64,000 nt of DNA. Origin: Antedon bifida (taxonomy: Eukaryota > Echinodermata > Crinoidea > Comatulida > Antedonidae). The position numbers and the translations under genes are program-made. Every line of letters begins with the position of its first letter. Within the stretch, counting starts at the first letter, position 1. Under the pieces are notes generated by a model. That model saw only the letters and a program-made list of their open reading frames with translations, had not been told where the DNA came from and ran no database searches. The stretch is from contig OY727102.1 in NCBI GenBank assembly GCA_963402885.1, forward strand, positions 16,368,001 through 16,432,000, written 5' to 3'. Positions 1 to 64,000 of the stretch are shown piece after piece.

Positions 1-814
1 TATACTTTAATTCACTAAAAATTAATAACTCGTTATTAATCGTCCAAATATAGTCTGTTATTTTCCATGGACTCATTGTTTTACAAGTCAATTCTAGATC
101 TCCGGATTTAAAAGCCGTTGCATTAGAGAATATATGAACGTCCGGGGGAACTCTTAACTGTATCTGGCATGACTGATTCTCATCGGCAGCTGGACCTTCT
201 GCCTTGCACATAAACACTGCATATTCGTCATCGATAGTCAGTACACGTGTTAGCCCTTCAAAGTATGATAATGTTTCAGTATTTAAAAAATCGTTATTTT
301 CCATTAACTTGATTCCATTTCTATACCATTGTAAATCTGGTTTTGGATCCCCTCCTTTTGCACTACATCTTAGATGTGCTGTTTTCTCGGTGTTTATTGA
401 CGTCATGTCTGAATCACACTGAGGATACATTGAGTCTAACCTCATTCCCCCATTAATTATTAAAGTGGCTTCTGGTGAAGATAAACCAAATTGACAAGTA
501 TACACACTTTCATCCTCAAATGTAGTATTCAGTATTGTCAATGTACTGGTTGTTCTGCTGTTGCTGATCTTTACTTCATATCCTGATGTTACAAACAGAT
601 CTTCCATGGCTATTATATTACTACCACCCTTAAACCATTTCCACATGGATGTAGAACTTAGTGTATCAATATTGCACTCAAATACAGCATTTTCACCAAC
701 AAATACTTCAAGATGCAATGGTTGTATAGTGGTAACAGCTTCAGACAGTAACCAGTAGTTACACACAACAGGAAATATAAACCAAACAAATACCTTACGG
801 CTGGTGAGCATCAT
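1..814 (-). CDS. Three-Ig-domain receptor, 3' part cut by window edge
   Basis: The minus-strand frame is open from the ATG at 814 to the window edge. It encodes a hydrophobic signal peptide beginning MMLTSRKVF, then Ig domain 1 (VGENAVFEC to YTCQFG), domain 2 (LRCSAKGGDPKP, WYRNG, FMCKAEG, QSCQIQL) and the start of domain 3 (LTCKTMSPWKITDYIW). The membrane helix and tail would lie left of the window. It is most similar to the genes at 2689-3987 and 6350-7714, which share the SEAVTTIQPL-type mature N terminus. The start is the first of two adjacent Met codons, as in those relatives. I infer a type I surface receptor; the ligand is unknown. Confidence 0.85.
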   Translation of the reverse strand, partial: MMLTSRKVFVWFIFPVVCNYWLLSEAVTTIQPLHLEVFVGENAVFECNIDTLSSTSMWKWFKGGSNIIAMEDLFVTSGYEVKISNSRTTSTLTILNTTFEDESVYTCQFGLSSPEATLIINGGMRLDSMYPQCDSDMTSINTEKTAHLRCSAKGGDPKPDLQWYRNGIKLMENNDFLNTETLSYFEGLTRVLTIDDEYAVFMCKAEGPAADENQSCQIQLRVPPDVHIFSNATAFKSGDLELTCKTMSPWKITDYIWTINNELLIFSELKY

Positions 815-2688
815 GGCATCCTAGTACAGTATAATCATATCATAATTCCAGTACACATCCAATAATAAACATAAATCTATAAAATGTTTTTTTTTTTCAA
901 TATTTGAGTTGTTTCCTTCCAAAATATCATGCAATCAGTACGCCACAATGATCTACGTCTGTCTGTGTGTAGTACTTGAATAGCATTCTGTAGTACACTC
1001 GCTCCGCACTAAAATGTTTACTTTTTATTTCACACCGTTAAATCGTTATGCATCGGTGGTGTTTACATTTTTATTCAAATGCATGCAATTCTTTTGCCCT
1101 TTGTGTTTATTTTATTTTGTTCTAATGGCGTTTATTTATTTCCTGTATTCAACTTGTTTAACGATAATATGAATCTACTAGCTAGAGACACTTTCATGAA
1201 ACATGAAAAGAAAATTGGATCTTTTATGATGACCAAAGATTTATCGACTATAAAATCATTGTAAAACGGACACTGCAACAGAATGCTATTTTCTCATAAT
1301 TAATCATTTAGTCATCATATGTACAATTAATTTATAATGAATATACATTATATGTCGTATCTATGAATCTGAAACTAAACAAAAAATTATACTAGGCCTA
1401 TAGAAATTTATATTTTTAAAAGTCTTATGATTTAGATTTCAAATATTTTTTCAGTGTAAATGCAGGGTTTGTATCAATTAGTTGACACATGATCAAAACA
1501 TCAACGACATTTTGAGTTTTGAAACTATAAAATATCTTTACTTTTGTGCATACATTTCACATATCAACAAGTTGTGAATTATTAATGAATGAAATATGGG
1601 CGTATCAATTGAATCAATCTCTTTTGCACGTGCATGCAGAGTAAACATTTCTTTGTATCAAACCAATGGTAAAAATACGAAATGATATGGTAAATACCAT
1701 CTTGACAGTTTCGTATTAAGACCAACTCAGAAAGCATCGTACGACGAAATGTCGGTGCTGTATTAGTTGAATTGAGATGTTGTTTTAAAAAAGCGTCGGA
1801 CGTAGTTTTTTGGTTGTCGGGAGAACATTAAACATGTTTATATTCTCCCGACAAGAAGATTCTTCTATAAAATAAGCTTTTCGTATGAGATTACAAACCA
1901 GACGAACATTTAAAATCAATCTACAATAACCTTAAAAGCATGCTGTCATACATTATTTATGATATATTTACATAAAATACCAATGCAAAATATACAAATC
2001 ATATATAGCTTTTAATATGGATATTTTGAATCCATTATAAGATATAACATTGTTAAATTTTGAGAAAATGACAATGAAGTACTATTACTATCACTGAAAG
2101 GATTTAAGTGAAAATTATTGTACATGAAATAAATTTCAAGCATATATTTTCTGTATAATCAACAGCAATATATAATATTATATAAATATAAGTTTATGTA
2201 AATTTTAAACTGTTACATAATGTAATGCATTTAGATATGCAGACAACCTTAAGTAGACAAGCATCCATGAATTGAATGCCTACTATATTATCCAGACAAT
2301 ATAAAACATTACACATTCAAACACTTTATATACATACATAATACTTTCAGAATGCATCACACGTCAACTTATCTATAATAATATGCATAATATGATAATG
2401 TCATAACAATATTTTTTTTCATTCAAAAGTACAAAGACTATCGGCTTAAATCGTCATCACACGGCGATCGTGATTTAGTGGTCTCTTTCTAATTTTGTGT
2501 TCTGTTTGTTAATTTCAATGTTGTAGATTTGTTTATTATTTGTATTAGGTCTGAATATATTGTTCTTCAACATTATTTACATGCCATTTGTCCACTGATT
2601 ATCTTTATTGGTTTTGCGAATAGATTATCACAATGTGTTCCAATGATGTAACCCTTTATTAATCGATGGAATTACTTGCATACTTAAT
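815..2688. other. Intergenic, duplicated upstream region of receptor 1
   Basis: No credible gene is visible. Segments at about 947-1260 and 1650-1930 match 4918-5180 and 5672-5945 upstream of the next receptor, so receptor and upstream DNA were duplicated together. The small plus-strand frames here show no recognisable domain. Confidence 0.6.
1814..1854. repeat. Perfect 12-bp inverted repeat (hairpin), copy 1
   Basis: TTGTCGGGAGAA at 1814-1825 is followed after 17 bases by its exact reverse complement at 1843-1854. The same structure is at 5807-5846 in the duplicated upstream region of the next receptor. Function is unknown: it could be a structured RNA or regulatory palindrome, or the remnant of a foldback element. 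Confidence 0.55.
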
Positions 2689-3987
2689 TCAATTTGCAAC
2701 TTCATCATAACTATTCTCTCCATCATCTTCATCAAAACTATGATTACTGCAAAAGCTTCCAATACTGGCAACTGACTCCACATTTTCGTAAGTTTCAGAA
2801 TCCAGTACATCTTCGTATAACCTAGATTCATCACAATTAATATTGGGAATAGGTGGCAAAACAAGATCAGGCTTATTTTGATCATACACGGTATAAATAT
2901 TTGCCTTTCCATCGTTCGGATGAGGTAAATTTTGACCTGTTAGAGACGTCTTCCAACGTCTTAAGCATACTAATAGGACAATAATAGCAATAAAGAGTAC
3001 TCCTCCGACTATTAAAACAGCAATTAAAGGAAAATCTGACTCACTACTATCAGTTGTTAGTGAAATTGTGACCGAATCGTTACCTGTTAGACCAGATGCT
3101 GTCTTGGCTTCACATTTTACTTCTGCATCAGCGTCACTCGATTGTAAATTATTAATGACCAATGTTGTTGTGTTATCTCTTAGACTAAAGCTGTAGTCTG
3201 ACGTATTCAAAGCCCTTTTGTTTATTGTCCAAACGTAAGAAATTATCTTCCATGGACTCATTGTTGTACAATTAAATTTCAGAGAATCTCCAGCGGTAAA
3301 CAATGATGTTGCATAAGTTAGGTTGACGTATGGAGAAACTCTTAACTGTGCTTGGCATGACTGACTTCCTTTAACTGCCAATCCTTCGGCTTTACACACA
3401 AACACTGCTTCCTCATCATCGGTAGTCAATATATGTGTCAACACGTCGTAGTATGAGGAGTTACCTTCAAAAAAATCAATCTGTTCTCTTAGTTTGACTC
3501 CATTTTTGTACCATTGTAATTCTGGTCTTGGTTTGCCTCCATTTGCATTACATAATACCGAAAAATTGTGATCACTGTTCACTGACGTTATATTAGTTTC
3601 ACACTGTGGAAACATATTGTCCAATCTGCCGATAACCGTTAGGCTGGCGTGTAACGACGAAGAACCACGATGGCAATGGTACTGCGTTTGATTATCCGCA
3701 ATAGTAGTATTATATTTTGTTAACTTACTGGTTGTTCCACTGAATGTAATATCGTATTCATCTGAGACATATACATTTTCCTTCGCTATTAATTTATTAA
3801 GATTTTTAAACCATTGCCATATAGCTGTATCCACCTGATCAGTAATACACTCAAATACAGCATTTTGGCCAGAAAATATTTTAAGATTCAATGGCTGGAT
3901 AGTGGTAACCGCTTCAGATATTAAACAATTGTAAACCACCAAATACCAAACAGATATAAACTTAACAACCTGGCCCGTGAACATCAT
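2689..3987 (-). CDS. Three-Ig-domain transmembrane receptor with YxxV tail
   Basis: A single exon of about 432 codons. The start MMFTGQ is chosen to match the two neighbouring relatives; an in-frame Met at 4008 would add seven residues. Order: signal peptide, Ig1 (NAVFEC, WQWF, YHCHRG), Ig2 (LCNANGGKPRP, FVCKAEG, with an extra Cys pair PQCET/SQSC), Ig3 (FNCTTMSPWKIISYVW, KCEAKT), membrane helix (FPLIAVLIVGGVLFIAIIVL), basic stop-transfer RRWK, and an acidic cytoplasmic tail. The tail has YTVY, YEDV, YENV and YDEV. YEDV and YENV are five residues apart, shorter than a classic ITAM, and YEN also fits a GRB2-type SH2 site. Role inferred: signalling surface receptor, probably immune. Confidence 0.85.
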   Translation of the reverse strand: MMFTGQVVKFISVWYLVVYNCLISEAVTTIQPLNLKIFSGQNAVFECITDQVDTAIWQWFKNLNKLIAKENVYVSDEYDITFSGTTSKLTKYNTTIADNQTQYHCHRGSSSLHASLTVIGRLDNMFPQCETNITSVNSDHNFSVLCNANGGKPRPELQWYKNGVKLREQIDFFEGNSSYYDVLTHILTTDDEEAVFVCKAEGLAVKGSQSCQAQLRVSPYVNLTYATSLFTAGDSLKFNCTTMSPWKIISYVWTINKRALNTSDYSFSLRDNTTTLVINNLQSSDADAEVKCEAKTASGLTGNDSVTISLTTDSSESDFPLIAVLIVGGVLFIAIIVLLVCLRRWKTSLTGQNLPHPNDGKANIYTVYDQNKPDLVLPPIPNINCDESRLYEDVLDSETYENVESVASIGSFCSNHSFDEDDGENSYDEVAN

Positions 3988-6349: not shown

Positions 6350-7714
6350 TCAAGTTAATGATTCGTATGGTGATTCATTCACCTTTGTTTGGTTTAGTTC
6401 GGTGTATATTGAGGAAGTTGTTGGAACTAACCCTGAATACACCATTTCACCAGAAATTGTCTGATCAGATGAAGTAGTTAACCCTGGATACACTATTTCA
6501 CCAGAAATTGCCCGATCAGATGACGTAGTTAACCCTGAATACACTATTTCACCTAAAATCTGATCAGATGACGTAGTTGTTTTTGGGCAGGATGTGACTA
6601 TACTTTGTTTCTGATTACATTTATCATTAATGATACAAACACATTTATATGATTTAAACAATTTTCTGAATTTAACCAAACTACCAATCAATAATCCAAC
6701 AAAAAACATACCAATTGAAAGACACAAAATTAGGATTACATAATTGTGATCATTAGAGGTTTTATCTTCATACTTTAGCTCAATAGTATCGCTACCAACC
6801 AATCCAGAAGACGTCGTTACGTCACAACGAATTACGATATTATAATGATGATTGAGATCAAATATTGCAATGTTTCTCCCATCGTTATTTATGGAATACA
6901 TTAATTTACTCGAAATTAATAACTCATTATCAATTTTCCAAATATAGTCTGTTATTTTCCATGGACTTACTGTTATACAAGTCAAAAACAGAGATCCTCC
7001 AGAGGTAAAAGTTGTTCTGTTAGAGATTATATGAACGTCTGGGGAAACTCTTAACTGTACCTGGCATGACTGTTTCTCATCTGCAGCTTGTCCTTCTGCT
7101 TTACACATAAAAACAGCATCTTCGTCATCGATAGTCAGTACACGTGTTAACTCGTCAAAGTATGAAGACATACCATCGAAGAGATCTACCTGTTCTGTTA
7201 GCTTGATTCCGTTTCTGTACCATTGTAATTCAGGTCTTGGTTTGCCTCCTTCTGCAAAACATGTTATTTGGACTTTATTTTCTGTGTTTAGTAACGAGGT
7301 GTCCGATTCACACTGCGGATACAGTGAGTTTAATTTCACTCCCTCCAAAACTGTTAGAGTGGCTTGTGGCGATGATGAGCTAAGTTGACAATGATATATA
7401 CTTTCATCCTCAATGGTACAATTAAGTATTGTCAATACGCTAGTAGTTCTATTTTTGCTGATCATTACTTCATATCCATTGCCTACAAACACATCTTCCT
7501 TGGCTATTAAATCAGTAGCACCTTTAAGCCAAATCCATTTGGATATAGAACTTAGTGTATCAGTATTGCACTCAAATACAGCATTTTCTCCAGCAAATAC
7601 ATCTAGATTCAACGGTTGTATTGTTACAGCTTCAGGAATTAAACAGTAATTGAACAGAACATAAAATATGTTACAAATAAAAATAAACATGCAACGTCCA
7701 GTGAACATCATCAT
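6350..7714 (-). CDS. Three-Ig-domain receptor with repeated ITIM-like motifs
   Basis: A single exon of about 454 codons from the MMMFTGR start. A Met at 7738 would add eight residues. Ig1 has NAVFEC and YHCQLS. Ig2 has ITCFAEGGKPRP, FMCKAEG and the extra Cys pair. Ig3 has LTCITVSPWKITDYIW. A membrane helix of about 23 residues (VILILCLSIGMFFVGLLIG) follows. The tail carries IVYSGL, IVYPGL and MVYSGL at an exact 17-residue period, then SIYTEL and YESL. IVYxGL and SIYTEL fit the ITIM pattern [ILVS]xYxxL. The last repeat plus SIYTEL is E-x-x-YxxL-x7-YxxL, which also fits ITAM. The tail could therefore recruit either SH2 phosphatases or tandem-SH2 kinases. Signal direction cannot be told from sequence. 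Confidence 0.87.
   Translation of the reverse strand: MMMFTGRCMFIFICNIFYVLFNYCLIPEAVTIQPLNLDVFAGENAVFECNTDTLSSISKWIWLKGATDLIAKEDVFVGNGYEVMISKNRTTSVLTILNCTIEDESIYHCQLSSSSPQATLTVLEGVKLNSLYPQCESDTSLLNTENKVQITCFAEGGKPRPELQWYRNGIKLTEQVDLFDGMSSYFDELTRVLTIDDEDAVFMCKAEGQAADEKQSCQVQLRVSPDVHIISNRTTFTSGGSLFLTCITVSPWKITDYIWKIDNELLISSKLMYSINNDGRNIAIFDLNHHYNIVIRCDVTTSSGLVGSDTIELKYEDKTSNDHNYVILILCLSIGMFFVGLLIGSLVKFRKLFKSYKCVCIINDKCNQKQSIVTSCPKTTTSSDQILGEIVYSGLTTSSDRAISGEIVYPGLTTSSDQTISGEMVYSGLVPTTSSIYTELNQTKVNESPYESLT
6429..6575 (-). repeat. 51-bp tandem repeats encoding ITIM-like motifs
   Basis: Nearly three units of 51 bp, each encoding GE(I/M)VY(S/P)GL plus a Thr/Ser-rich spacer. The third unit is shorter by two codons. 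This is recent in-frame expansion of a phosphotyrosine motif. Confidence 0.75.
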
Positions 7715-7738
7715 ATGATACAGTAAAGTATAAAGCAT

Positions 7739-8377: not shown

Positions 8378-10270
8378 TCACATTCTGGAGAAAAGAAACA
8401 TTGCATCATGTGCATTTAAGCCTTTATCAGAACCTGTATACATTCCTGAATTATTTCCTAAGGAATTACTGTTAAGCTGGGCGTACAACTTATCAATTGA
8501 TCCCAACCGGTTTTTAAACGAGTAATTTTTATTTACTTTTGAAATATCTTCAAGAGATTGATGTATTGATTTGGGACGTATAGTAGGCGTTGCATAGATA
8601 GTTTTATAACCATGTGTTCTATGTAAGTGTGGTTCATCATGTCGTTTAGTTTCTTTATTTGGTTTTGCATAAAGATATCTAAAATCGGCCAGTGTCCCAG
8701 ACGATCGTGAACGCCGGTGTTGTGTCATATTCAGTGGTTTTGCATATATAGTTCTAGAATCGACTAACTTACTAACTGACGGTGTTCCGTGGGTTTCTTT
8801 TATTGGTTTTTTATTTAAATCAACGAAATAAGTTCTTCTGTGTGGTTTGTGAGGTCGGGCTAACATCGATACATACGTATCGTGAGAGCCAAGAACATCG
8901 TCACTTCCTCTAACGGTTTGCTTGTTACAAACATGTTCGCGTTCCTGTGAATCCAAATCTTGTAAATTACTAATACTTCCATAAGTGTCGAAAGAGTCCG
9001 CATTTGTATCGAATGAAACACTTTCTTGTTCATCATTATTGCTTCTAATAGGGAAACTATTTGACTCTTCTGATTGTGAGTTTCTATCGTTATGTATAGA
9101 GTTGCTGCTTGTTTTGGACGGTGATGATACATCATTTATAACAGTAGGTTTATCCCTTGTAGATGCATTACAATTACTAACTAAAGATTTAATTGGATTT
9201 CTCTTTATTATAATCAATATGATAATACATGCCCATAACAGAGTTACTATTCCTGCAACCGCTTTTAAAACAATTTTGCGACTTTTATGAGCAAGTGAAA
9301 TTTGCAAACAATCGCTAGCATTTAACCCAGAGGTCGTTATCGCAATGCATTCAATCTTTTTTCTATCATCTTCTTCTTCTAACTTCAATTTTATTAACAT
9401 AGTATTATTAATATCATGTCTAAATTCTGGATTCGACAACTGCACCACCTGATTATCAAACATCCACATGTAGCTTGTGACGGTCCACGGACTCATTGCC
9501 ATACATGTGAACCCCATTGAGTCACCAACAGTGAGGGATGTTTCAGTTGCAATAATGTTGACCGTCGGAAGAGTTTCTAAATAAATGGAACAACTATGGT
9601 TATTATCTGCTGCTACGCCTTCTGCTCTACATGTGAACACTGCCCATTCGTCATCAGGTGTCAATAAATATTCAATAGTATTCGTGTAAGTCCCATTGGA
9701 AAAAAGAAAGTTATCAAATTCTTTTAATTTGTCACCGTTTCTGTACCATTTTAATGTTGGTGTGGGATCGCCGCCATTTGCAGTGCAATTCATCTTTACT
9801 ATGTTCTTTGTGTTGACTTCTGAGAAATCTGCTTGACACTCTGGATACTTTGAGTCCAATCGTTTCCCAATGGTCACTGAAATGTTAGCAATTGCTGAAA
9901 AAGTTCCATAAGAACAGATGTATTTAGCCTGATCAGCAACTGTAACATTCATTATCGTCAGTCTACTGGAACTACTTTTCCTTTGCTCATAAACTTCAAA
10001 GTTAAACCTACTTTGTTTAATAACATTCGAACGTCCGTTCCATATTAAGTTCGCGTTGAGATTGTTTTCGGTCACGCGATACCATTTCCAAAAATACTGT
10101 TTCTCGTCGTGATGATTATTGCATTCAACTATCGCATTTTCTCCGACAAAAACATATTGTTCTGCTGGATGTATTATAATTTTACTGAATCCTAGAGAAA
10201 AGCAACAGGATTGTATGAGAATACAAAGCAACAAGTATCTAATTTTCCCACACCAGCAATAACTTTCCAT
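8378..10270 (-). CDS. Three-Ig-domain receptor with long YAxP-type tail
   Basis: A single exon. Starting at MESYCWCGK gives about 630 residues with a good signal peptide; the frame extends to a Met at 10378, but that leader is less signal-like. Ig1 runs from NAIVECN to YICSYG. Ig2 has MNCTANGGDPTP, FTCRAEG and an extra Cys pair (PECQAD/NHSC). Ig3 has FTCMAMSPWTVTSYMW. Then comes a membrane helix (VLKAVAGIVTLLWACIIILI) and a tail of about 250 residues, the longest in the array. The tail contains IYAKP, LYAKP, IYATP and LYAQL plus YGSI and YVSM, with Ser/Asn-rich linkers. YxxP is the known CRK/CRKL SH2-binding pattern, so an adaptor-scaffold role is plausible. It is the most diverged YAxP-class member here, and its repeats are no longer recognisable as DNA repeats. 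Confidence 0.85.
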   Translation of the reverse strand: MESYCWCGKIRYLLLCILIQSCCFSLGFSKIIIHPAEQYVFVGENAIVECNNHHDEKQYFWKWYRVTENNLNANLIWNGRSNVIKQSRFNFEVYEQRKSSSSRLTIMNVTVADQAKYICSYGTFSAIANISVTIGKRLDSKYPECQADFSEVNTKNIVKMNCTANGGDPTPTLKWYRNGDKLKEFDNFLFSNGTYTNTIEYLLTPDDEWAVFTCRAEGVAADNNHSCSIYLETLPTVNIIATETSLTVGDSMGFTCMAMSPWTVTSYMWMFDNQVVQLSNPEFRHDINNTMLIKLKLEEEDDRKKIECIAITTSGLNASDCLQISLAHKSRKIVLKAVAGIVTLLWACIIILIIIKRNPIKSLVSNCNASTRDKPTVINDVSSPSKTSSNSIHNDRNSQSEESNSFPIRSNNDEQESVSFDTNADSFDTYGSISNLQDLDSQEREHVCNKQTVRGSDDVLGSHDTYVSMLARPHKPHRRTYFVDLNKKPIKETHGTPSVSKLVDSRTIYAKPLNMTQHRRSRSSGTLADFRYLYAKPNKETKRHDEPHLHRTHGYKTIYATPTIRPKSIHQSLEDISKVNKNYSFKNRLGSIDKLYAQLNSNSLGNNSGMYTGSDKGLNAHDAMFLFSRM

Positions 10271-11130
10271 TTTCGTGGTACACGATAAAGAGTGTAGTAC
10301 GGTAGGAGCAAGTCGTAACAAGCTACAAGAATATTCCTCTAGCCGCAGTTTTCTTAGTAGTAAAATTATTTGTAACATTTTCCCACATTTTATTTATCAA
10401 GTGTTATTTATTGTGATTATACTGTATCCGTTTTGCTTGTAGAAACATCTAAACGTGCATTTTTCTAATTTGTGTAGCTTCCTTGTCTTACCGGTAATTA
10501 GTCACTTAGGTTTAAAGTACAGACGATTTTTAAAGGTCAATTTCCGAGTATTGTTAACCAATAAAAATCAACACAAATAATATTATCAACAGCATACTGT
10601 ATATCTTAATGTCGAGCAAATTCGATTCTTGATTGGGCCAACATTTTCATTATTTGATGTTCTCGTTTATATTATTCAACAACACAACGTTAAAAATTAA
10701 ATGTTGCGATTAAATTATTTTTCAGATTCTCGTGATGTATTTTTTCGAAGAAAAAAAATAACAAAAAGTAACAAAAAACAACACATAAAACAGTAAGTAA
10801 AGTAAATATTATAAGGATTTATTAACCTGACACCGTTTGCGTTTACATAATGAAAAGAATAATAGTTCATTTATAAGTCAAAGTGAACCCATGATTATTA
10901 ATAATAATGCTTAAATATATTTGAAATACCTTTTTATAATGTGATCCTGATTAGACACGTGCTCAGCTGAAACGCAGCCCTCACTTTAATTACATTGTTC
11001 GCTATCAAATATCAAAGTAACATTACCGTCGAGAACCTTTATGTAAAATCGGCTATGTTCTTTTCATTTGACCTTTTTTTCGAATAAATTTCTCAAATCA
11101 GATACTTTACTTGTATGATTAACTTTCTTC

Positions 11131-12467: not shown

Positions 12468-14192
12468 TTAAAGTTTTATTGGTTTTGCATATAGGTCTTC
12501 CATATCCTGTACTTCATCAGTATTGTGTTGTATGTGATCCTTTCCACCTTTATTTGGTTTTGCATAAAGGTCTCCAAAATCGGTTACTTCCTCGTCATTG
12601 TGTTTCGCGTGAACTGTTCTGCCTTTATTTGATTTTGCGTAAAGTTCCCCAAAATCCTGTATTTCATCATTATTGTTTTTCGCGTGAACTGATTTGCTTT
12701 TATTTGGTTTGGCGTAAAGTTCTCCAAAATCATCTACTTCGTCATTAGGGTTACTAACTTCACTTTTTACTCTTTTCATTGGTTTTGCATATAATTCTCC
12801 AAAATCTGTTGGTAGGCCTACAACGCTTGCTTTTGATTTTACCGGTTGTGCATACAAAGCATCAATATCATCTTCATCTGTCACATTTCCCTCCTGGTCA
12901 AAGCCAACAGACGTACCACTAGGCCTACTTCTAAAAGTGTCCAATGTATTTACGTACCTCACTGTTCCTTCATTCTCATCTCTAGCAGTTATATCTATAC
13001 GCCTATCATATGGAATGGAGTGAATGGAAGCTGCTTGTTCCGAATCACCAGTTTCATTTGTTTTTAGCACATTATCATAGTAGCTTGAAGTAACTTTTTG
13101 ACTTCGATTCTCTCTTTGCCCTTTCCGTTTTCGATTTTGACATAGAATGCACATCGCAAGACATACTAATAGTATCAAAACTACAGCTCCAGCTACTATC
13201 AGTATTATTAACAGTGTGCTATTTTTCTTCTCCTCCTTCGAATCATTCGAATCATTTATTGATATTTTCACAGAATCATTACCACTCAATCCAGACGACG
13301 TCATAGCTGTACATTCTACTACTTTCTCGTTATCTTCTGATTGTAAATTTGATATAGTTAATTCAGTATTTTCACTGTTTAGTTTGAACTTTGTATTTTG
13401 ATTAACTGGTTCATCACCATATTTCCAGGAATAGGAAGTTATATTCCACGGGCTCATTACCATACATGTAAATTCTAATGAGTTACCAACAGCAAAAGAT
13501 GTAGTATTTGCAATCATGGTGACCGTTGGTGGAATTGCTGTCTTTATAAAACAACTTTGGTTAGCAGTTGCTGCTACACCCTCTGCTTTGCATGTAAATA
13601 TTGACGTCTCATCTTCACTGGTCAACAAATGGTTCAGCACAGCAACATAAGATAAGTTATTTACAGAACTTTGATATTCTGTAACCTCTTTACCGTTTCT
13701 GTACCATTGTAATACTGGTCTTGGATCGCCACCATTTGCACTGCATGTCATTGTAAGTGTTTTCTCCGTATTGACAATACTGTTATCAGATTGACACGCT
13801 GGATATTTTGAATCTAACTTTGTTCCTATGATAACGATGAGTGTGACATTCATCGATACCGATCCATGTTGACAGTAATATTTAAATTGACCATCTTCCA
13901 CTGTGCTATTTAATATTGTCAGTGTACTCTTCTTTCTATCGTTGTAAATGTTGAATTCATATCTGGAATTGGTAGTCTCTCCCTCATGCGCTAAAACTAT
14001 AACGCTTCTGAATATTTTAAACCACTGCCATCTCCTCGTATCTGACGGCGAACTAATACTGCATTCAAAGGTAGCCTTATCTCCCACCAACACTTTGATT
14101 TCAGTAGGATGTATTGTAGGCATTTCAGTATTAACAAACAAACTGTAATAAATCAACATTAACCAACATCGAACAACGTAAGAGTATACCAT
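12468..14192 (-). CDS. Three-Ig-domain receptor with YAxP-repeat tail
   Basis: A single exon of 574 residues, the best complete example of its class. Signal peptide about 1-22. Ig1 about 24-121 with C43 and C107. Ig2 with C150 and C201 plus an outer pair C133/C214. Ig3 with C243 and C294 and the motif MSPWNITSYSW. Membrane helix about 327-351 (STLLIILIVAGAVVLILLV), then basic CQNRKRK. The tail has LYAQP, a run of 25-residue repeats with DFGELYAKP, and a final LYAKP; one repeat reads YAKS. Phosphorylated YxxP sites recruit CRK-type SH2 adaptors in other animals, so the repeats may form a multivalent docking tail. The upstream block at 14193-14600 matches the rest of the young family. Confidence 0.9.
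   Translation of the reverse strand: MVYSYVVRCWLMLIYYSLFVNTEMPTIHPTEIKVLVGDKATFECSISSPSDTRRWQWFKIFRSVIVLAHEGETTNSRYEFNIYNDRKKSTLTILNSTVEDGQFKYYCQHGSVSMNVTLIVIIGTKLDSKYPACQSDNSIVNTEKTLTMTCSANGGDPRPVLQWYRNGKEVTEYQSSVNNLSYVAVLNHLLTSEDETSIFTCKAEGVAATANQSCFIKTAIPPTVTMIANTTSFAVGNSLEFTCMVMSPWNITSYSWKYGDEPVNQNTKFKLNSENTELTISNLQSEDNEKVVECTAMTSSGLSGNDSVKISINDSNDSKEEKKNSTLLIILIVAGAVVLILLVCLAMCILCQNRKRKGQRENRSQKVTSSYYDNVLKTNETGDSEQAASIHSIPYDRRIDITARDENEGTVRYVNTLDTFRSRPSGTSVGFDQEGNVTDEDDIDALYAQPVKSKASVVGLPTDFGELYAKPMKRVKSEVSNPNDEVDDFGELYAKPNKSKSVHAKNNNDEIQDFGELYAKSNKGRTVHAKHNDEEVTDFGDLYAKPNKGGKDHIQHNTDEVQDMEDLYAKPIKL
12480..12780 (-). repeat. 75-bp coding repeats of YAKP unit
   Basis: Three clear 25-codon units plus flanking partial ones, in frame at the C terminus of the receptor. 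Each has a DFG(E/D)LYAK(P/S) core followed by an acidic/basic spacer. Confidence 0.75.
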
Positions 14193-15819: not shown

Positions 15820-17457
15820 TCAAATCATTGTACAAATGCGAGAGTTCGTTGGCTCCAGTGTCCTGGTCTTCTCTTTATTTCTCCTTATATGTAATGATTC
15901 TCTAATCTGTCTGTCTTTTCGTTTAGGCTCTTTGGTTAAGATGGTAGCCTCCCAGTTCGGTACATGATTGTGTTTTATGACATGTTCTGTAATGGCAGAT
16001 TTGTGTATGATCGATGATGTGGATGTTTTGGAAGCCCTAGTCATTACTCCCCCCGTGTTTGTTGTAACATCTTTTTTGTGATCATTAATTCTTGTTTGTA
16101 ATGCCCTCCCTGTTTCCCCAATGTAAACTTGTGGACAGTTGTGGCAGGTGACTTCGTAGATTACTCCACATGTATCCATCTTCTCGATTTTATCTTTTGG
16201 GTGGACGAGGCTATTCTTGATTTTATTTTGTGGTAGGAAATAGGTTCCGACATTGTGACAGGAGAGAGTGCGTCGTATTCTTTCTGCCATTCCTTTTACA
16301 TAGGGGATTCCTATGCTACCTCTCATCTTGATCTTTTCCTTCTGTGGTTCGTGTCCTTTGTTCTTTTTTCTTTTTCGGTTTTCCATAACTCTCTGGAAGG
16401 ACCACTCTGGATACTGGCAGTTATGTAACGCTTTCTTGATGTTATCCATCTCAACTTTCCTCAAATCCATATCTCCCACTACCTTCTCAGCTCTGTCCAC
16501 AAGCGTGTTTATAAGCCCCAGTTTGTGTTCGAGAGGATGATGTGAGTTGAAATGTAAATATTGGTCTGTGTGGGTGGGCTTCCGATAGACTGAGGTGGTA
16601 ACTGTTCCGTTGTCATTGAGTGTGATGAGCATGTCTAGGAAAGGTATTGTGTTGTTTGTCATGGATTCTGTGGTGAATTTGATGTTGTCCGTTATATCGA
16701 TGTTGTTAAGATGTGTGTTAAATGTATTTACTGTACCTGTGGGGATGATAGCTAATACATCGTCAACGTATCGTTTCCAATACACAGGCTTGATGTTGGT
16801 GGGTGCCGTGTTTATGGCTTGATGTTCGAGCCACTCTAGATACAAATTCGCCAATATAGGACTTATTGGGCTTCCCATAGCAATGCCTTGTATTTGCCTA
16901 TAAATGTTACCATTGAACGAGAAATAGGTTTTGTTCACAATTAAACCGAGGAGCTCCATTATGTCTGTCACGTGTAGTTTAGTTCTATCCGGAAGTGTCG
17001 GATCTGTTGTTAGGCGATTTTCGACAACTTTGAGGGCCTCTTCTACTGGTGTTTTTGTAAACAGAGATACTACGTCAAACGAGACAAATGTTTCACTTGG
17101 TTTGACTATTATTTCTTTTAGTTCACTCGCCAACTCTCCTGAGTAAGTTACATGATGTTCTGTGTTTCCGACAAGCGGACCCAGGATTTTGGCGAGGAAT
17201 TGTGCAACGGTGTAAAAAACGGTGTTGATGTTATCTACTATAGGTCTTAATGGCCAATTTGGTTTATGTATCTTCGGAAGACAATACAACCTAGGTACGA
17301 TTTCAGCCGTGGGAAATAGCCATTCTTTCTCTCTGTAGTTGATTTTCTTTTCTTTGAACAACCTGCCTATGATGTTAACCACTTTTCGTTTAAATTTTTG
17401 TGTTGGATTACGTTTTAGCAGTTCGTAAACATTAGTGTCGCTTACCATGGTTCCCAC
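15820..17457 (-). CDS. Penelope-like reverse transcriptase with GIY-YIG endonuclease
   Basis: An uninterrupted frame of 545 residues. Reverse transcriptase motifs: LPKIHKPNWPLRPIV, QGIAMGSPISPILANLYLEW, and the catalytic box YVDDVLAI about residues 228-235. The C-terminal part has CHNC followed by VYIGETGRALQTRINDHKKD, the GIY-YIG nuclease start with its conserved Arg. The RT/GIY-YIG order is diagnostic of Penelope-like elements. The usual N-terminal segment ahead of the RT fingers is missing, so the copy is 5'-truncated although this frame is intact. The Met start is simply the first in the surviving frame. It lies in DNA paralogous to 42.4 kb, which lacks it, so it inserted after that duplication. 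Confidence 0.9.
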   Translation of the reverse strand: MGTMVSDTNVYELLKRNPTQKFKRKVVNIIGRLFKEKKINYREKEWLFPTAEIVPRLYCLPKIHKPNWPLRPIVDNINTVFYTVAQFLAKILGPLVGNTEHHVTYSGELASELKEIIVKPSETFVSFDVVSLFTKTPVEEALKVVENRLTTDPTLPDRTKLHVTDIMELLGLIVNKTYFSFNGNIYRQIQGIAMGSPISPILANLYLEWLEHQAINTAPTNIKPVYWKRYVDDVLAIIPTGTVNTFNTHLNNIDITDNIKFTTESMTNNTIPFLDMLITLNDNGTVTTSVYRKPTHTDQYLHFNSHHPLEHKLGLINTLVDRAEKVVGDMDLRKVEMDNIKKALHNCQYPEWSFQRVMENRKRKKNKGHEPQKEKIKMRGSIGIPYVKGMAERIRRTLSCHNVGTYFLPQNKIKNSLVHPKDKIEKMDTCGVIYEVTCHNCPQVYIGETGRALQTRINDHKKDVTTNTGGVMTRASKTSTSSIIHKSAITEHVIKHNHVPNWEATILTKEPKRKDRQIRESLHIRRNKEKTRTLEPTNSRICTMI

Positions 17458-17551
17458 TTTATCCGGAGGCGTACGACGCTTTTACAAAAACGAAATTTTG
17501 TCATCTATTTAAAATCGAAGCTAAATGAAATTTTTCCAAGACATAATAACA

Positions 17552-18425: not shown

Positions 18426-20243
18426 TCAAATTTGGGCATAAAGGTCTTCCAAATCCGGTACTTCCCCATTATTGTTTTTCACGTGACCTTTGTCCCCTTT
18501 ATTTGGTTTTGCATAAAGCTCTCCAACATCAGCTACTTCCTCGTTATTGACGTGTTTCGCGTGACCTTTGTCCCTTTTATTCGGTTTTGCATAAAGCTCT
18601 CCAACATCAGCTACTTCCTCGTTATTGACGTGTTTCGCGTGACCTTTGTCCTTTTTATTTGGTTTTGCATAAAGCTCTCCAACATCAGCTACTTCCTCGT
18701 TATTGACGTGTTTCATGTTACCTTTGTCCCCTTTATTTGGCTTTGCGTAAAGTTCTCCAAAGTCAGCTTTTTCCTCATTAGTGTTTTTAACTTTGCCTTT
18801 TGTTTCCTTCATTGGTTTTGCATATAATTCTCCAAAATCTGTTTGCTTTTGACTTTACCGGTTGTGCATACAAAGCATCAATATCATCTTCATTTGTCGC
18901 ATTTCCCTCCTGGTCTTTATCAAAGCCAATGGACGTACCACTAGGCCTGCTTCCCAAATTGTTCAATGTTGATGTATTTACGTAGCTCACTGTTCCTTTA
19001 TTTTCATCTCTAGCAGTTATATCTATACGTCTTTCATAGGAGTGAATTGAAGTTGCTAATTCTGAATCTTTAACACCAATTTGACCAGAAACATCTGAAA
19101 TGCTAATATGTTGATGGTTTAGTGGGACATCATGTACAGTTTCATTGTAGCTTGAAGTAACATCTTGTTTTCGATTTTCTTTTTGCCCTTTCCTTTTTCG
19201 ATTTTGACATAGTATGTAAATCGCAAACCATACTAACAGAATCAAAACTACAGATCCAGCTACTACCAGTATTATTAAAAGTGTGCTTTTTTCCTGATCC
19301 TCATTCGGATCATTCGAATCATATATCGGAATGATCACAGAATCACTACCACTCAATCCAGATGACGTCATCGCTATGCATTCTACTACTTTCTCAGCAT
19401 CTGAGATAGTTAATTCAGTACTGTCACTGTTTAGTTTGAACGTGTTACTTGTCAGATCCATCGGTTGATCGTCATACTTCCAGATATACGAAGTTATATT
19501 CCACGGGCTCATGGCCGTACATTTAAATTGTAAAGAGTCACCAAATGCAAAAAATGTAGTGTTTGCAATAATAGTGACCATTGGAGGAACTTCGAGTGTT
19601 ATGGAGCAACTGTGGTTAACAGTTGTTGCTATACCTTCTGCTTTGCCGTTTCATCTTCAGCAGTTAATAAATAACTCAACTCAACAAGATAAGATTCATT
19701 GAGAGATCTCTGAACGTATTCTTGTTCTGTAACTTTTCTGTCGTTTCTATACCACTGTAATACTGGTTTTGGATTTCCACCACTTCCACTGCATGTCAAT
19801 TTAAGTGTTTTATTAGTATTTACAATACTATTTTCAGATTGGCACTGAGGATAACCTGACGCTAAGTTTTTACCATTGGTAATTATGAGTATGGCTTTCA
19901 TTGATGTCGATTGATTTCCAAATCGACAGTAATATTCATATTGGCCATCCTCCACTGTCACAGTTAATATTGTAAGTGTACTCTTACTTCTGTCGTTATA
20001 GATAACTAATTGGTATCTGGAATTAGTAAACTGATCTTGCGCTATGTTTGTAATAGTTCCTTCTGTTCCACTAGCTTTATACCAAATCCATATTTCATTT
20101 AAAGGTAAAGGTGTTTGAGTAATAGTGCATTCAAAAGTAGCATTATGTCCTACCACCACTTGTATTTCATTAGGATGTATAGTGGTAAGAGCATCAACAA
20201 AAGACAACATTAACCAACATCGAATAACATACAAATATACCAT
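18426..20243 (-). pseudogene. Broken YAxP-repeat Ig receptor
   Basis: Three pieces of one receptor lie in order. 19629-20243 holds the signal peptide, Ig1 and most of Ig2. 18787-19581 holds Ig3, the membrane helix (STLLIILVVAGSVVLILLV) and the proximal tail. 18426-18812 holds the YAKP repeats. Against the 12468-14192 gene there is a 13-bp loss near 19645 (Ig2, at the FTC strand) and a 17-bp loss near 18840 (proximal tail). Each shifts the frame; together they total 30 bp, so the outer pieces share a frame. Either break alone would stop production of a normal receptor. The tail repeats remain open and very uniform, so decay is recent. A sequencing error at both sites is unlikely but possible. 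Confidence 0.8.
18440..18790 (-). repeat. 78-bp coding repeats of YAKP unit
   Basis: About four 26-codon units, each with GELYAKPNK, DKGH, KHVNNEEVADV. The central units are almost identical in DNA, which suggests recent homogenisation by unequal exchange. Confidence 0.75.
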
Positions 20244-20900
20244 CTTGCTTTAATTTCCTAAATCATAAAAACGGGAACTTATCCGCTGAATCTGAAGTAA
20301 ATGTAGTTGCGAGCATGATTCAGAATATCAATCTTGAGCGTCTGTTACATGTCAAGTTTTATATTCATGGCACGCAGTGGCCCAATTCACTGTAAGCCCT
20401 AAATAATATTTGTTTAGCCTTAACAACGGCATTGAGCTGAGTTTCTTTTCAAAACATCGTCTTTATGGTTCGAAGTAATTGATCCGAAATCTTAAATTTA
20501 GCATGACTATGTCAACTATTTTCATCTATAAAAAGCTTTAAAAATCACTTAAAAACCCCCATATTGCTTCTATCAGTAGAACGAGAAGTTATTAATTTGT
20601 ATTCCTTCACAGAAAAACTGAAACTAGTGTTTCTTCGATGGTTGGCTGTTGGTCTCGGTTAAACGAGTTTGTTTTTGTTGTGCATGACACGCAATGGCAC
20701 ATTTTATTCAATGTGGGTAATAAATAATATTTACATAACGTTAACAATGATATTGAGTTTAGTTTATTTTCAAAACATCTTATTTCCTTTATGCTTTGTA
20801 TATTGATCCAAAACCTTTAATTTAGCATGACTATGTCAGTTTCACCCTATAAATTGCTTTCAAAAAATCCCATAGCACTATTATTTGTGTAAAATCACAA
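20244..20900 (-). promoter_or_regulatory. Two tandem copies of the receptor upstream block
   Basis: The first copy (about 20244-20565) adjoins the pseudogene. A second copy (about 20570-20900) begins again with ATCAGTAGAACGAGAAGTTAT and repeats GATGGTTGGCTGTTGGTCTC and GACACGCAATGGCA. The IRF-like site GAAAAACTGAAAC at 20612-20624 is in the second copy; the first has lost it. The second copy has no gene directly 3' of it. Confidence 0.5.
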
Positions 20901-45481: not shown

Positions 45482-47294
45482 TTATATATTGTTTAATACC
45501 AAATATAGAATATTCATTAATTCGTGTCCGATTTTAGTCTTGTTAACTTTACCATTGCTTTCATTGTCTTCCAATGACGATGTTTCGGAGCTATTTCTTC
45601 CTTCAGTCTCATTTCTATCAGTTATACCGGTATGCCTTTCACAAGAATATCTTGAAGTGGTTAGTTCAGGGGATGAAAACACTAGTTTCGTGAGAAATAT
45701 TCTCTGACAATGACATACTGTTTAGAGGGCATCGTGCTAATTCCCATTTGTATTAGACTGGTTTTTATTGTCAGAATTTCTTCTTGTTTTTGGTTATCTT
45801 TTTGTCGTCTCTATCTTTGATCTTGGAAGAATATGAACAGAGAAAAACATACCAACAGTGTCAAAACTACAGATCCAACCACTACCATTAACATTATTAA
45901 AAGTGTGCTATTTTCCTGTTTCTCATTCGAATCATACATTGACATAATTACCGAATCACTACCACTTAATCCAGATGACGTCACAGCTGTACATTCTACT
46001 ACATTGTCTTCATCTTGGCATTGTAAATTTGATATAGTTAACTCAGTGTTGTCACTGTTGAGTTTGAATTGTGTACTTGTCATATCAATCGGTTTATTAT
46101 CGTACTTCCAGATATAAGGGGTAACATTCCACGGACTCATCACTTTACATGTAAATTCTAACGAGTCCATAACAGCAAAGGATGTCAGGGTTGTAATGAG
46201 AGTGACCTTTGGTGGAATGGTGGGCTTTACAGAACAACTTTGGTTAACAGTTGATGACATGCCTTCTGCTCTACATATTGACATCTCATCTTCAGCAGTC
46301 AGCAATTATTTTAAACCAGCTAGATAAGATTTGTTGTCATCGGATCTACCACTATCTTGTTCTATAACCGTTTTACTGTTTCTGTACCATTGCAATAATG
46401 GCTCGAGATTGCCACTACTTGCACTGCATGTTAGCGTAAGTGTTTTCTATGTATTTACTGTACTGATATCAGATTGAAACTCTGGATATTTTATGTCTAA
46501 CTTACTTCCCATAAGAACTAGGAGTATTGCATTCATTGATCTATTTCCATATTGACAGTAATATTGAGCTTCACCATCCTCCTCTGTAATATTTAATATT
46601 GTCAGTGTACTCTTCCTTCTATCGTCGTCAATGTTTAATTCATATCTGGCATCGATAACTCTTTCCTCCTCAATCACTATGAATGTAGTAGCGCCCATAT
46701 ACGTTTTAAATCATTTTCATCTCAGAAGGTGTCACCCTCATGGTACATTCTAAAGTTGCATTACTGTAAATCTTCTAATTGTTACCCTGGGTTATTATTC
46801 TTTTATTGTTTTTTTAGGGTGGGTTACTATTAGAAGCGGGATTACTATTAGAGTAGTGGGTTACTATTACTAATCTTAAATTAGGCACCTGAAAATAGTA
46901 ACCCATCCCAAACTTTTCCGGTCAGCAACTCATAGCAAAATAATAAAACAGTACAAATAAACAAATTTGGTTGAACTCTTAACTTTATTTTATAAACTCA
47001 AAAACACTAAATCCTCCCCTACGCCCGAGATCAACATGCATTATCTCCTTATTTTCAAAATACGGCTGCATCATAAGTTTTTGTGGGTTAATATCATAGA
47101 TTGGCTTATAAGGTGGGTTACTATTGGAAGGGGGTGGGGGGTACTATTAGAGTGTGGGTTACTATTAGAAGATTTACGGTATCTCCCACCCACACTTGAA
47201 TTTCAGTAGGATGTATTGTAGGCATTGAGTATTAACAACCGAACTGTAATACATCAACATTAACCAACATTCGAACAACTTAAACATTTACCAT
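45482..47294 (-). pseudogene. Ig receptor pseudogene interrupted by a MITE
   Basis: Pieces of a YAxP-class receptor in order: a start region at 47294 where ATG GTA is followed within five codons by TAA; the beginning of Ig1 up to 47182; a 416-bp insertion at 46764-47179; the remainder of Ig1 (46447-46698, YYCQYG); a disrupted Ig2; Ig3 and membrane helix (45811-46305, FTCKVMSPWNVTPYIW, LMVVVGSVVLTLLVCFSLFI); and a short distal tail at 45482-45682 (CERHTGITDRNETEG). Several frame breaks, the early stop and the insertion make it non-functional. No YAKP repeats remain. Confidence 0.85.
46764..47179. mobile_element. MITE family C inside the pseudogene, TA target duplication
   Basis: The ends CTGTAAATCTTCTAAT and ATTAGAAGATTTACGG are inverted, each bordered by TA. 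Intact siblings read GCATTATCTCC straight through at this codon, which fixes the insertion point. Internal sequence is made of short GGGTTACTATTAGA repeats in both orientations. There is no coding capacity. TA duplication suggests mobilisation by a mariner/IS630-like transposase. Confidence 0.8.
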
Positions 47295-61761: not shown

Positions 61762-61814
61762 CTTTGACCGGGATCCTGTATACCAATCAACAGGTGATGG
61801 CTTTTCTGAGGTGG

Positions 61815-61824
61815 CTTTATATAG
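61815..61824 (-). promoter_or_regulatory. TATA box of the A2M-like gene
   Basis: TATATAAAG on the minus strand, about 55 bp before the chosen ATG at 61761. Expected transcription start is near 61790. It decides the start between two in-frame Met codons. Confidence 0.55.
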
Positions 61825-61836
61825 GCTTACCGACAA

Positions 61837-63305
61837 ATTAAAAGGTCACAGTGGTATTAATCGGTAGTTGAAGATTTACGTCAGCGTAAGGCTTAAGGTA
61901 CCTCCAAAAATTCTAGGTCTGCATATCGGAAGTTATTAAACGTGTATATAGTCGAAACTGTTTTATATACTTATAAATTCATGCTACAATTAATATACCA
62001 CCTGTAGTAGGACTTCAGTTTCTTTCCAAAATAAACAATCAATTCATTTTTTATTATTTTCTATCTTTTAAAAAGTTTCGTTCCAGTCAATTTTTAGACG
62101 GATTCGGTTTTTTGAAATAGGGAAAAGATTATAGAAGAAGTATTTCTGAAATGTATGATTTTGGGAGAGGGAAATTTTCCATCCAATATTCAATTCCATC
62201 TAATTTTTTAAACATTTAGTTTTATACGGTTTTAAATATCTTAAAATATTGTTACAATTGTTTTATAATATGTTGTTTGTAATGCTGTTATATTCATGAA
62301 CCGTTTATTTACTTGTATGTGATTTTGATCAAATGAATGAATAAATGAATGAAAAGTGTTACAATACAATGAAAATATAAATGTAAGATACAATTCTTTC
62401 GCTAGGGCTATTATTAGTTCGATCACTTCCATTGTTATTAGATGTCTGTGATGTGATTGCTGACGCAATATATGACGTAATAGACATCAGGGAGGGCTTC
62501 CGTACCAGTTGAAAGAAAGTTATTAATTGTTATAAAAACGTCATTCATTGTTTTACTGAATCTTTTAATCGATCAATCAAATGGGGTTATGTAGTACACT
62601 AACTAAAACTGTCACGTATTTGGTGAAGGCACCGTTTGGAATCGTAAGCACACGAATAAACGATTCAATTATTCTAAGTATTGGAACTGAAACATTTATA
62701 TATTTTGTAACAAATTGTTTTATTATTTAAAAAAGATCTTACAATAAAGTAAAATAAAATAATTTATTTAGCTAAACTTACTCATCCTTGGGGCTACTAA
62801 ACTAAATTATAATATTTATTTTATGTCATAAAATGTTTTAATAATGCCTTGTAACATTATAACATATATACAAGGGGAAACATCTGCAATGACCTATACT
62901 GCGCAAGACATTGCCCTTCAACTAACTCACAGCAGTTATCAGAACAGATATTTGGCTTTACATACACTTATAAATTGAAATTATAATTCCCACCATACAA
63001 TATTATATTTACAACGATACCTTGTTTTTTTACTCTTACTATTAGGCCTAGTTTATATTAATTATACAATTTTTGGTTTACTTTAGAGAATAACCTATGC
63101 ATATTCATTAATGGCCATTATGACACCTATATACTAGAGTAGAGTGTCTCTTTACATAGGCATATCCATTTAATTTAAATTTTTTTCGCCTACTCTAATG
63201 CCGTTTTATCAGATGAATACATCGTTATTATTACAAATGAAAACTGGTTGAAATGTAATTATCTTGATGTCATAAGAATCTCTGTCATCCTGAACACTGG
63301 TAAAG
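61837..63305. other. Intergenic between A2M promoter and next receptor
   Basis: AT-rich with no gene or repeat I can identify beyond a short GAATGAATAAATGAATG run near 62335. Confidence 0.5.
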
Positions 63306-64000
63306 CTAAGCATGTGTTTCAGGTGACATATATTCCGAATGTTCTAGGTTGATTGGATTAGGATTGATTTCCTTGTATTTTGGGGCATCAGTCTTTTTCA
63401 ATACAGAGTATCCACTAGATATTATAGTTTTATTTTGAATTGTAGGTTTTTCACCAGTAAAGACAGTTTCATATTCATGCGAACAATTCGAATAGTTATC
63501 ATCATTTAGTTTCGTTATCTTGCCTACAGCAAGTGAATTATCAGTATAAAGTGGTTTCCTTGATTTTATCACTTTACCAAGACACAGACCAACAACAAAT
63601 GCTACCACGATGCCAACGCTAAAACAGATGATAACTAATACATCAAATCTACTATTGACATCAATATGTAGTCTATCACCAGCTACCATTCCAGATGATG
63701 TGGTGACGTTGCACCTGATATCGATTCCTTCATGATTTGTATCCAAATCCGATAACAATAAAACACTTTTTTTATTTTCTAAGCTATAATGTAATTGAGT
63801 TGACGATAAGTTTTCTCCATTGACGTACCACTCATAGCCAACCACTCGCCAGGGTGTTTCTGCTGTGCAGATTACTTCCATGGAGTCCCCGTCGTAGAAT
63901 GTTGTACTTTTAGTTGAGACAAAGACAGTTGGTGGAATATTAAGGTTTGCAGAACAACTTTGGATGTTGTTGACACCCGGTCCTTCTAGTTTACAATTTA
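63306..64000 (-). CDS. Ig receptor, 5' part cut by window edge, ITAM-spaced tail
   Basis: The frame is open to the right edge, continuing above the Met at 63881. It begins inside Ig2 (CKLEGPGVNNIQSC), then PPTVFVSTKST, Ig3 (VICTAETPWRVVGYEWYVNG, RCNVTTSSGM), a membrane helix (VLVIICFSVGIVVAFVVGLC) and a tail. The tail has YETV, YSVL, YKEI and YMSP. YSVL and YKEI are seven residues apart, the ITAM spacing, although the acidic residue at -3 is missing. It is clearly a diverged relative of the array on the far side of the A2M gene. The start and Ig1 lie outside the window. Confidence 0.85.
   Translation of the reverse strand, partial: NCKLEGPGVNNIQSCSANLNIPPTVFVSTKSTTFYDGDSMEVICTAETPWRVVGYEWYVNGENLSSTQLHYSLENKKSVLLLSDLDTNHEGIDIRCNVTTSSGMVAGDRLHIDVNSRFDVLVIICFSVGIVVAFVVGLCLGKVIKSRKPLYTDNSLAVGKITKLNDDNYSNCSHEYETVFTGEKPTIQNKTIISSGYSVLKKTDAPKYKEINPNPINLEHSEYMSPETHA

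Follow-up and report, generated by a model that had tools for sequence, protein, structure and literature searches.

A crinoid cluster of single-coding-exon immunoglobulin receptors whose recognition heads appear to be shared between ITAM and YxxP tails

In the LILR, KIR and FCRL families, tandem immunoglobulin (Ig) receptors combine related ectodomains with differing tyrosine tails, and their genes are multi-exon, with one exon per Ig domain. Immune recognition in echinoderms is usually described in terms of TLR, NLR and SRCR expansions. In the CEACAM family, members with immunoreceptor tyrosine-based activation motifs (ITAMs) or inhibition motifs (ITIMs) are described, in the account drawn on here, as having ligand-binding domains that are kept alike by gene conversion and recombination, the motif showing x7 spacing (PMC2832619). 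Ig receptors with ITAM/ITIM-type tails are also known from Botryllus, Hydractinia and oyster, as far as the portions of the reports consulted go (PMC12065747, PMC11999971). For echinoderms, no cluster of Ig receptors with ITAM or YxxP tails was found among the open-licence papers listed. Here we describe such a cluster in the crinoid Antedon bifida, in a stretch of 64,000 nucleotides (the window; contig OY727102.1, here called C15, positions 16368001-16432000) of a 315.6-Mb genome in 27 contigs.

Our analysis suggests that these genes form a cluster of type I receptors with a single coding exon each which works like a paired-receptor system, the recognition heads being shared between an ITAM module and a YxxP module, a reading that we hold to be fairly probable. 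The sequences show the gene layout, the two classes of tails, the conservation of the tails between two genomes and one switch of a tail, and also an exchange of heads between the two tail classes, which is a hallmark of paired receptors.

Fifteen gene copies touch the window and all lie on one strand, as the first-pass annotation had stated, namely the minus strand. Its count of fifteen receptors is correct for copies but not for intact genes, since 11 unbroken frames of 416-666 aa (G02-G05 and G07-G13) lie wholly within the window, two are cut by its edges (G01 with 419 aa and G16 with 437 aa, both uninterrupted in the flanking sequence) and two are broken (G06, which is frameshifted, and G14, which is startless with in-frame stops). 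One of the 11 inner frames, G08, is shortened by a frameshift within its tail repeats. The whole array extends over ~86 kb (C15:16346927-16432619) with about 20 copies on one strand, going on in the left flank with Ga (622 aa), Gb (693 aa), Gc (399 aa, the tail of which stops before any ITAM) and the partial copies Gd and Ge. Across the array G06, G14, Gc, Gd and Ge are broken. The features of the window are as follows:

1..820 (full gene C15:16367555-16368814), minus strand: 5' part of G01, ITAM class, with the ITAM YSGLVPTTPSIYTEL beyond the window
2689..3987, minus strand: G02, three Ig domains and a transmembrane (TM) helix, tail with YEDV/YENV/YDEV, related to the YxxP-class tail but truncated
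6350..7738, minus strand: G03, ITAM class, ITAM at ~6395-6439, 51-bp tandem repeat at 6428-6578
8378..10378, minus strand: G04, YxxP class (YAKP, YAKP, YATP), start codon uncertain
12468..14192, minus strand: G05, YxxP class with five YxxP, 75-bp coding minisatellite at 12475-12747
15823..17481, minus strand: open reverse-transcriptase/GIY-YIG frame among the copies, not a receptor, which we take to be Penelope-like
18429..20249, minus strand: G06, broken YxxP-class copy with frameshifts, 78-bp minisatellite at 18436-18780
22058..23323, minus strand: G07, ITAM class, ITAM at ~22085-22129
26563..28023, minus strand: G08, YxxP class, frameshift-shortened, repeat remains reaching 26371
29730..30977, minus strand: G09, ITAM class, ITAM at ~29757-29801
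32997..34247, minus strand: G10, chimera of YxxP-class Ig3/TM and ITAM-class tail, ITAM at ~33024-33068
36414..37700, minus strand: G11, ITAM class, the reference copy, ITAM at ~36441-36485
39872..41131, minus strand: G12, ITAM class, ITAM at ~39899-39943
43091..44905, minus strand: G13, YxxP class with six YxxP, 78-bp coding minisatellite at 43142-43445
45769..46710, minus strand: G14, broken, startless and with in-frame stops
47181..47278, minus strand: small remnant of the 5' end of a copy
63306..64000 (gene C15:16431306-16432619), minus strand: 3' part of G16, a divergent ITAM copy, ITAM YSVLKKTDAPKYKEI at ~63366-63410

The coding region runs from signal peptide to stop within one open frame. 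The reading of these frames as signal peptide, three Ig domains, membrane helix and tail was borne out by Pfam, with two to three separate Ig_3 stretches per protein in 9/9 cluster proteins scanned (a tenth scanned protein being an RT/GIY-YIG frame), and by the AlphaFold model of G11, in which a signal helix and three Ig domains (block predicted local distance difference test values mostly 80-95) are followed by a TM helix and a disordered tail. Eight cysteines are invariant in 14/14 rows of a joint alignment of 5 cluster members and 9 distant loci, corresponding to the three Ig pairs and an extra pair flanking Ig2 (C135 and C219 of G11). The fold matches listed by Foldseek were generic Ig ones, including CD22 domains 1-3, nectin-like, nectin-1 and DIP, with template-modelling scores by query length of 0.19-0.30, and residues 21-226 gave fold matches to T-cell receptor and antibody chains. 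The fold matches listed pointed to no family, and LILR, KIR and FCRL were not among them, which proves nothing.

Searching the genome with G11 (E 1e-10) yielded 35 matches, with 98 of 243 candidates scored. Apart from the C15 array itself, these include five pieces near 19.23 Mb of C12, most with stops, and at least nine weaker, uninterrupted relatives that are 24-30% identical across the three Ig domains. Six of these relatives are on C15 (5.0-6.7 Mb), and C13, C11 and C7 have one each. All nine of these distant relatives are a single frame of 388-661 aa and none of them contains an ITAM, several having other tyrosine motifs, suggesting that, as far as sampled, single-exon coding is a trait of the older family and the ITAM one of the cluster. 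The description of the genes as intronless holds for the coding region but not as a trait specific to the cluster. A conserved intron in the 5' untranslated region was also considered and is unsupported, a GGTAAGT-like upstream site being seen by eye in 3/8 aligned regions of sequence.

The tails of all 16 uninterrupted frames of the array were scanned for motifs. An ITAM (YxxL-x7-YxxL/I) is present in 8/16 (G01, G03, G07, G09, G10, G11, G12 and G16), the spacing being 7 in all eight. The pattern with a spacing of 6-8 arises in 0.2-1.6% of shuffles per ITAM-bearing tail, where the tails are related and the tests thus not independent; these values and the 11 long homologous frames make chance an unlikely explanation. 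G16 retains its ITAM despite only 36% identity to G11 over residues 6-365. Two or more YxxP without an ITAM are present in 6/16 frames (G13 with six, G05 with five, Ga, Gb and G04 with three each and the frameshifted G08 with two), so that 5/16 frames have three to six; the single YxxP of G16 is matched by 34% of shuffles. The YxxP count was reached by 0/2000 shuffles for G05 and G13, by ~1% for Ga and G04, by 2% for G08 and by 6% for Gb. The repeats of four loci (G05, G06, G08 and G13) are encoded by 75-80-bp coding minisatellites. YxN sites, a Grb2-type motif, are found in some tails of this class.

Neither ITAM nor YxxP is present in G02 and Gc. YxxV was considered as a tail class of its own and rejected, since the tail of G02 can be aligned to the front part of the Ga and Gb tails, which are of the YxxP class; a tblastn search for YxxP remnants past the stop of G02 gave weak matches only (best E 0.31). 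The ITIM pattern occurs outside the ITAM in 2/16 tails, that is in G03, with IVYSGL and IVYPGL upstream in the 51-bp repeat and SPYESL near the end, and in G05, with SYYDNV. The tails that had been described are hence all present (ITAM, the mix of ITIM-like motifs and ITAM in G03, YAxP repeats and the YxxV of G02) and do go with related ectodomains, but the pairing of activating with inhibitory receptors is not supported in the form proposed, as the main classes are ITAM and YxxP. YxxP is given as a docking motif of the Crk SH2 domain, of which p130Cas carries 15, and the passages relied on call it rare for a single intracellular protein to have three or more (PMC2689226). The YAQP motif, given there at Crk Y221 (PMC2689226), is also present in YxxP-class tails, and by its sequence this second tail looks like a Crk-type scaffold.

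Trees were made for each module from 19 proteins, 16 from the A. bifida genome and three from Antedon mediterranea, leaving out G06, G14, Gd and Ge as broken and labeling G02 as YxxP class and Gc as ITAM class though their motifs are truncated or absent. In the Ig1 and Ig2 trees the tail class takes 6 changes (5-7 in bootstraps), no fewer than with shuffled labels, 214-231 of 500 shuffles being as low. In the Ig3 and TM trees it takes 2 changes (0-1 of 500 as low; bootstrap 2-3), the extra one being G10. Silent differences between the classes, with means over 12 of the 19 rows (G10, G02, G04, G16 and the three A. mediterranea proteins being left out), were 0.33 for Ig1, 0.28 for Ig2, 0.37 for the front of Ig3 and 0.73 for the rest of Ig3 plus TM in one subgroup, and 0.42, 0.48, 0.30 and 0.83 in the other, suggesting that within each subgroup the heads were kept alike across classes and the signalling modules stayed apart. 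ITAM-class copies compared across the two subgroups show the reversed order (heads 0.61-0.76, signalling 0.52).

Breakpoints were looked for in 8 pairs. In three cross-class pairs (G05/G07, G10/G11 and G01/Ga) a breakpoint lies near residues 247-260 of G11, inside Ig3, with p at the 0.002 floor. For G07/G11 and G01/Gc it lies near 119-122, G08/G13 and G09/G11 gave weaker signals, and no breakpoint signal was obtained for G08/G10 (p 0.13). Unequal domain rates can add to such signals, although the silent-site contrast argues against rate alone. We conclude that recognition heads have been exchanged between the two outputs because the Ig1 and Ig2 trees ignore the tail class, the Ig3 and TM trees follow it, the silent sites agree and G10 is a chimera. 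Compared with G11, G10 is 98-100% identical over 500 bp upstream, 47-49% in Ig3/TM and 88% at the start of the tail, its Ig3/TM being 87-89% identical to G05, with the switch roughly 1100 nt past the ATG.

A search of a large protein collection with G11 gave three proteins, all predicted in A. mediterranea (P0001-P0003; automatic names syg-2-like and contactin-2-like), the best with 75% identity over the whole query. These are the only full-length homologues found, so that the genome, which had been taken to be an invertebrate one, has its nearest relatives in the crinoid genus Antedon. Of two profiles, A1 gave the three Antedon proteins plus two weakly matching, generic Ig proteins, and A2 gave none; as both searches need shared short words and scored a limited list of candidates, these absences are weak. 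P0001 is predicted over the same full length and matches end to end; it has the same 15 residues of the ITAM, and its tail is 86-94% identical to those of G07, G09, G11 and G12 and 78% to that of G10. Its Ig1 is 67-69% identical, so that tails are better conserved than heads between the genomes. P0002 is nearest to G10 in Ig1 (74%), Ig2 (76%) and Ig3/TM (87%), its best match by total BLAST score being G05 with G10 second, but its tail is of the YxxP type (81% to G05, 43% to G10), so that one receptor body carries different tails in the two genomes. The last residues of P0002 and P0003, both database predictions, look frameshifted relative to G05.

Tails are also less variable than heads within the cluster (entropy 0.24 vs 0.65 for Ig1-2 in six ITAM-class rows). 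In Ig1, variability is higher at residues 53-71 and 104-123 (strands C, C', F and G), with 1.15 bits against 0.67 (p 0.0007 by permutation), but residues 71-78 and the BC loop are variable too. In V-type domains, ligands usually bind on the GFCC' side. The ratio of mean nonsynonymous (dN) to mean synonymous (dS) differences in eight group-II copies is 0.54 for Ig1, 0.42 for Ig2, 0.33 for Ig3, 0.59 for TM and 0.62 for the tail, where both classes are mixed. These region-wise values point to constraint and are no proof of positive selection, which the means of 0.33-0.62 do not support though single pairs reach ~1; for the Ig1 of G10/G11, dN is 0.101 and dS 0.099.

An SH2 search of the genome gave 55 matches among 67 candidates. 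On C7 there are two tandem SH2s in exons best matching SHP-2 (E 1.5e-41 and 8.6e-39). On C10, two SH2s ~15 kb apart, the first with similar scores to SHP-2, Syk and ZAP-70, are followed by tyrosine-kinase exons on the same strand; these pieces may form one gene, and the locus would be one of Syk/Shark-like layout rather than a proven Syk.

Taken together, Ig1, Ig2 and the first strands of Ig3 would form a faster-evolving recognition module, whose V-like first domain probably binds with its GFCC' side and which recombination would move between two old signalling modules made of the rest of Ig3, the TM helix and the tail. In the one module, the intrinsic ITAM, once phosphorylated, would bring in a Syk/Shark-like kinase with tandem SH2 domains and so activate the cell. 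In the other, two to six phosphorylated YxxP sites would attract Crk-type adaptors, with engulfment, adhesion or movement driven through Rac as the outcome. The same ligand could in this way couple to either output, and a change of minisatellite length would alter the number of docking sites. The use of the cluster in immunity is likewise a part of this model that we infer, as are the ligand face, phosphorylation, the partners, coelomocyte expression and the role in defence. A stronger version, which we put forward tentatively and would not yet bet on, is that recombination within single exons links the fast-evolving heads, as one common repertoire, either to an ITAM or to a receptor-borne, minisatellite-encoded Crk-docking array, where the trigger of a head would change between copies and species and array length would set signal strength.

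Several observations weigh against the paired-type reading. Many inner branches of the trees are weak (open in 12/16 for Ig1, 9/16 for Ig2, 7/16 for Ig3 and 7/15 for TM), and firm branches alone force 3, 1, 2 and 1 changes, respectively. The YxxP class compared across subgroups is flat at silent sites (heads 0.65-0.70 vs signalling 0.71), which neither helps nor contradicts head exchange, and the reversal is found in the ITAM class only. A clear inhibitory tail class was not seen in the motif scan of the 16 frames, the average dN/dS is below 1 in every region, and the GFCC' face was defined only after the variable sites had been listed. In addition, the 78-aa kinase piece on C10 best matches EGFR and ACK and not Syk, and the Ig homology is generic, the best profile matches being Robo, DSCAM, SYG-2 and contactins.

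This last point bears on a rather unlikely alternative, namely that the genes are a lineage-specific adhesion or neural-recognition family (SYG/Kirre-, DIP- or nectin-like) with tyrosine tails for cytoskeletal docking and no immune role. The automatic names of the A. mediterranea proteins and the nectin-like, DIP, SYG-2 and Robo entries among the fold and profile matches agree with it, and YxxP docking fits adhesion scaffolds as far as the cited portions describe them (PMC2689226). The sequence likeness, however, is that of Ig domains in general. Moreover, eight kept ITAMs, head exchange and many broken copies are more usual for immune or allorecognition genes than for those of neural adhesion. 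Receptors for allorecognition or gamete recognition, like Botryllus FcoR and Hydractinia Alr, are to be considered too, and we give them a similarly low probability. In those systems, going by the sections cited, the Ig receptors are clustered, have tails of ITAM/ITIM type and show mixed motifs (PMC12065747, PMC11999971), and such motifs are reported there for Hydractinia allorecognition candidates (PMC12065747). The single-exon receptors with one V-like domain which adjoin the array (see below) could serve as partners. Crinoids, however, are not known to be colonial, so that control of fusion is less expected.

Very improbable, finally, is a reading in which the frames belong as exons to a single larger gene or a few such genes, or in which the tandem is decaying and its copies are non-functional. 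Decay would be in line with the broken copies G06, G14, Gc, Gd and Ge, and AATAAA/ATTAAA is absent within 300 nt of the stop in 6/11 copies checked. Each of the 11 inner frames, however, has its own signal-peptide region, TM helix and stop, the upstream regions are mutually related in 8/8 copies aligned, P0001 has the same full length, mean dN/dS is below 1 and the tails are conserved between genomes. Exons of larger genes, which the first-pass annotation had named as speaking against its own reading, are rejected on sequence grounds, given the signal peptide, TM helix and stop of each frame and the end-to-end match of P0001. A paired-type receptor cluster with shared heads remains the reading that we prefer, and it bears out the first-pass annotation in kind.

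Adjoining the array on the minus strand (C15:16433881-16444897) are single-frame Ig receptors with one V-like domain (L013:1881-2855, L013:4054-4944 and L014:1878-2897), of which the first and the third, when translated, show a TM helix followed by a short tail that ends near VELPExYxR; they are possibly partners or ligands. Within the window, a single minus-strand frame at 61333-61845, for which Pfam gave no match, begins like a signal peptide and has a body rich in Thr and Ser that lies over a 21-bp tandem repeat (61504-61670). The flanks contain TIR-like frames (L005:2877-3776, C15:16304576-16305148 and 16318345-16318827; the one scanned matched TIR_2 below the curated cut-off) and RING/B-box frames (L019:3751-4956 and C15:16503274-16504386; one scanned), perhaps an immune neighbourhood. 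Mobile-element frames also lie beside the array, one bearing an integrase (L012:1973-4558, plus strand) and one an endonuclease and reverse transcriptase (L013:6095-9382, minus strand).

A Pfam Ig_3 search of the genome, in which 150 of 1362 candidates were scored, gave dense runs of matches, mostly in exon-sized frames, at C13:20.05-20.73 Mb, C1:12.06-12.33 Mb, C8:11.10-11.12 Mb and C13:22.9-23.9 Mb. C9, C10, C11 and C14 carry at least eight open frames with an Ig_3 match and a length of 1306-1380 aa; one of the eight (L023, C14:3570500-3574900) and a shorter one (L024, C8:11949400-11951700) encode related long proteins with an Ig pair.

If true, an ITAM-bearing cluster of paired type in a crinoid would mean that receptor logic of this kind either arose more than once or predates the chordates. 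Heads and tails in one exon would offer a simple system for swapping and testing both, and tuning a signal by variable-length YxxP arrays on the receptor itself would be unusual.

The layout proposed at first, that of LILR, KIR and FCRL, agrees with our cluster in the tandem arrangement and the varied tails and differs from it in two respects. The crinoid genes have a single coding exon and not one exon per Ig domain. Activating paired receptors, in the passages cited, join ITAM adaptors through a charged TM residue (PMC2832619), whereas 15/16 crinoid copies have no charged residue in the predicted TM window, G04 having one K at its edge. The likeness to these families is one of layout, no sequence link being seen among the matches listed, and we make no claim of membership in a vertebrate family.

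The Botryllus FcoR locus is, like ours, a cluster of invertebrate Ig-superfamily receptors with several kinds of tyrosine motifs, but in the parts of the report used FcoR has a V-sushi-C2-C2 ectodomain, ITIM and hemITAM, and swaps motifs by splicing (PMC12065747). The crinoid receptors have three Ig domains and a full ITAM, with swaps apparently made by recombination, and no sushi domain was found in the 9/9 cluster proteins scanned with Pfam. The Hydractinia Alr family (41 genes) also consists of invertebrate Ig receptors, and the oyster CgIgIT2 has an ITAM in common with the crinoid cluster but five Ig domains; head/tail exchange and YxxP tails go unmentioned in the corresponding sections of that account (PMC11999971).

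Receptors of the CEACAM1/CEACAM3 type resemble the crinoid cluster in the intrinsic ITAM-type motif with x7 spacing, in similar heads across different tails and in clustered genes, as far as described in the cited portions; CEACAMs, however, are multi-exon and pair the ITAM with ITIM or the immunoreceptor tyrosine-based switch motif, whereas the crinoid genes have one coding exon and a YxxP array as the partner tail, and we make no claim of orthology (PMC2832619). The YxxP-class tails, for their part, are like scaffolds of the p130Cas type, described as YxxP arrays that bind Crk SH2 (PMC2689226), and may bind Crk in the same way. Cas, in that description, is cytosolic with 15 sites (PMC2689226), while the crinoid array lies within the tail of the receptor itself.

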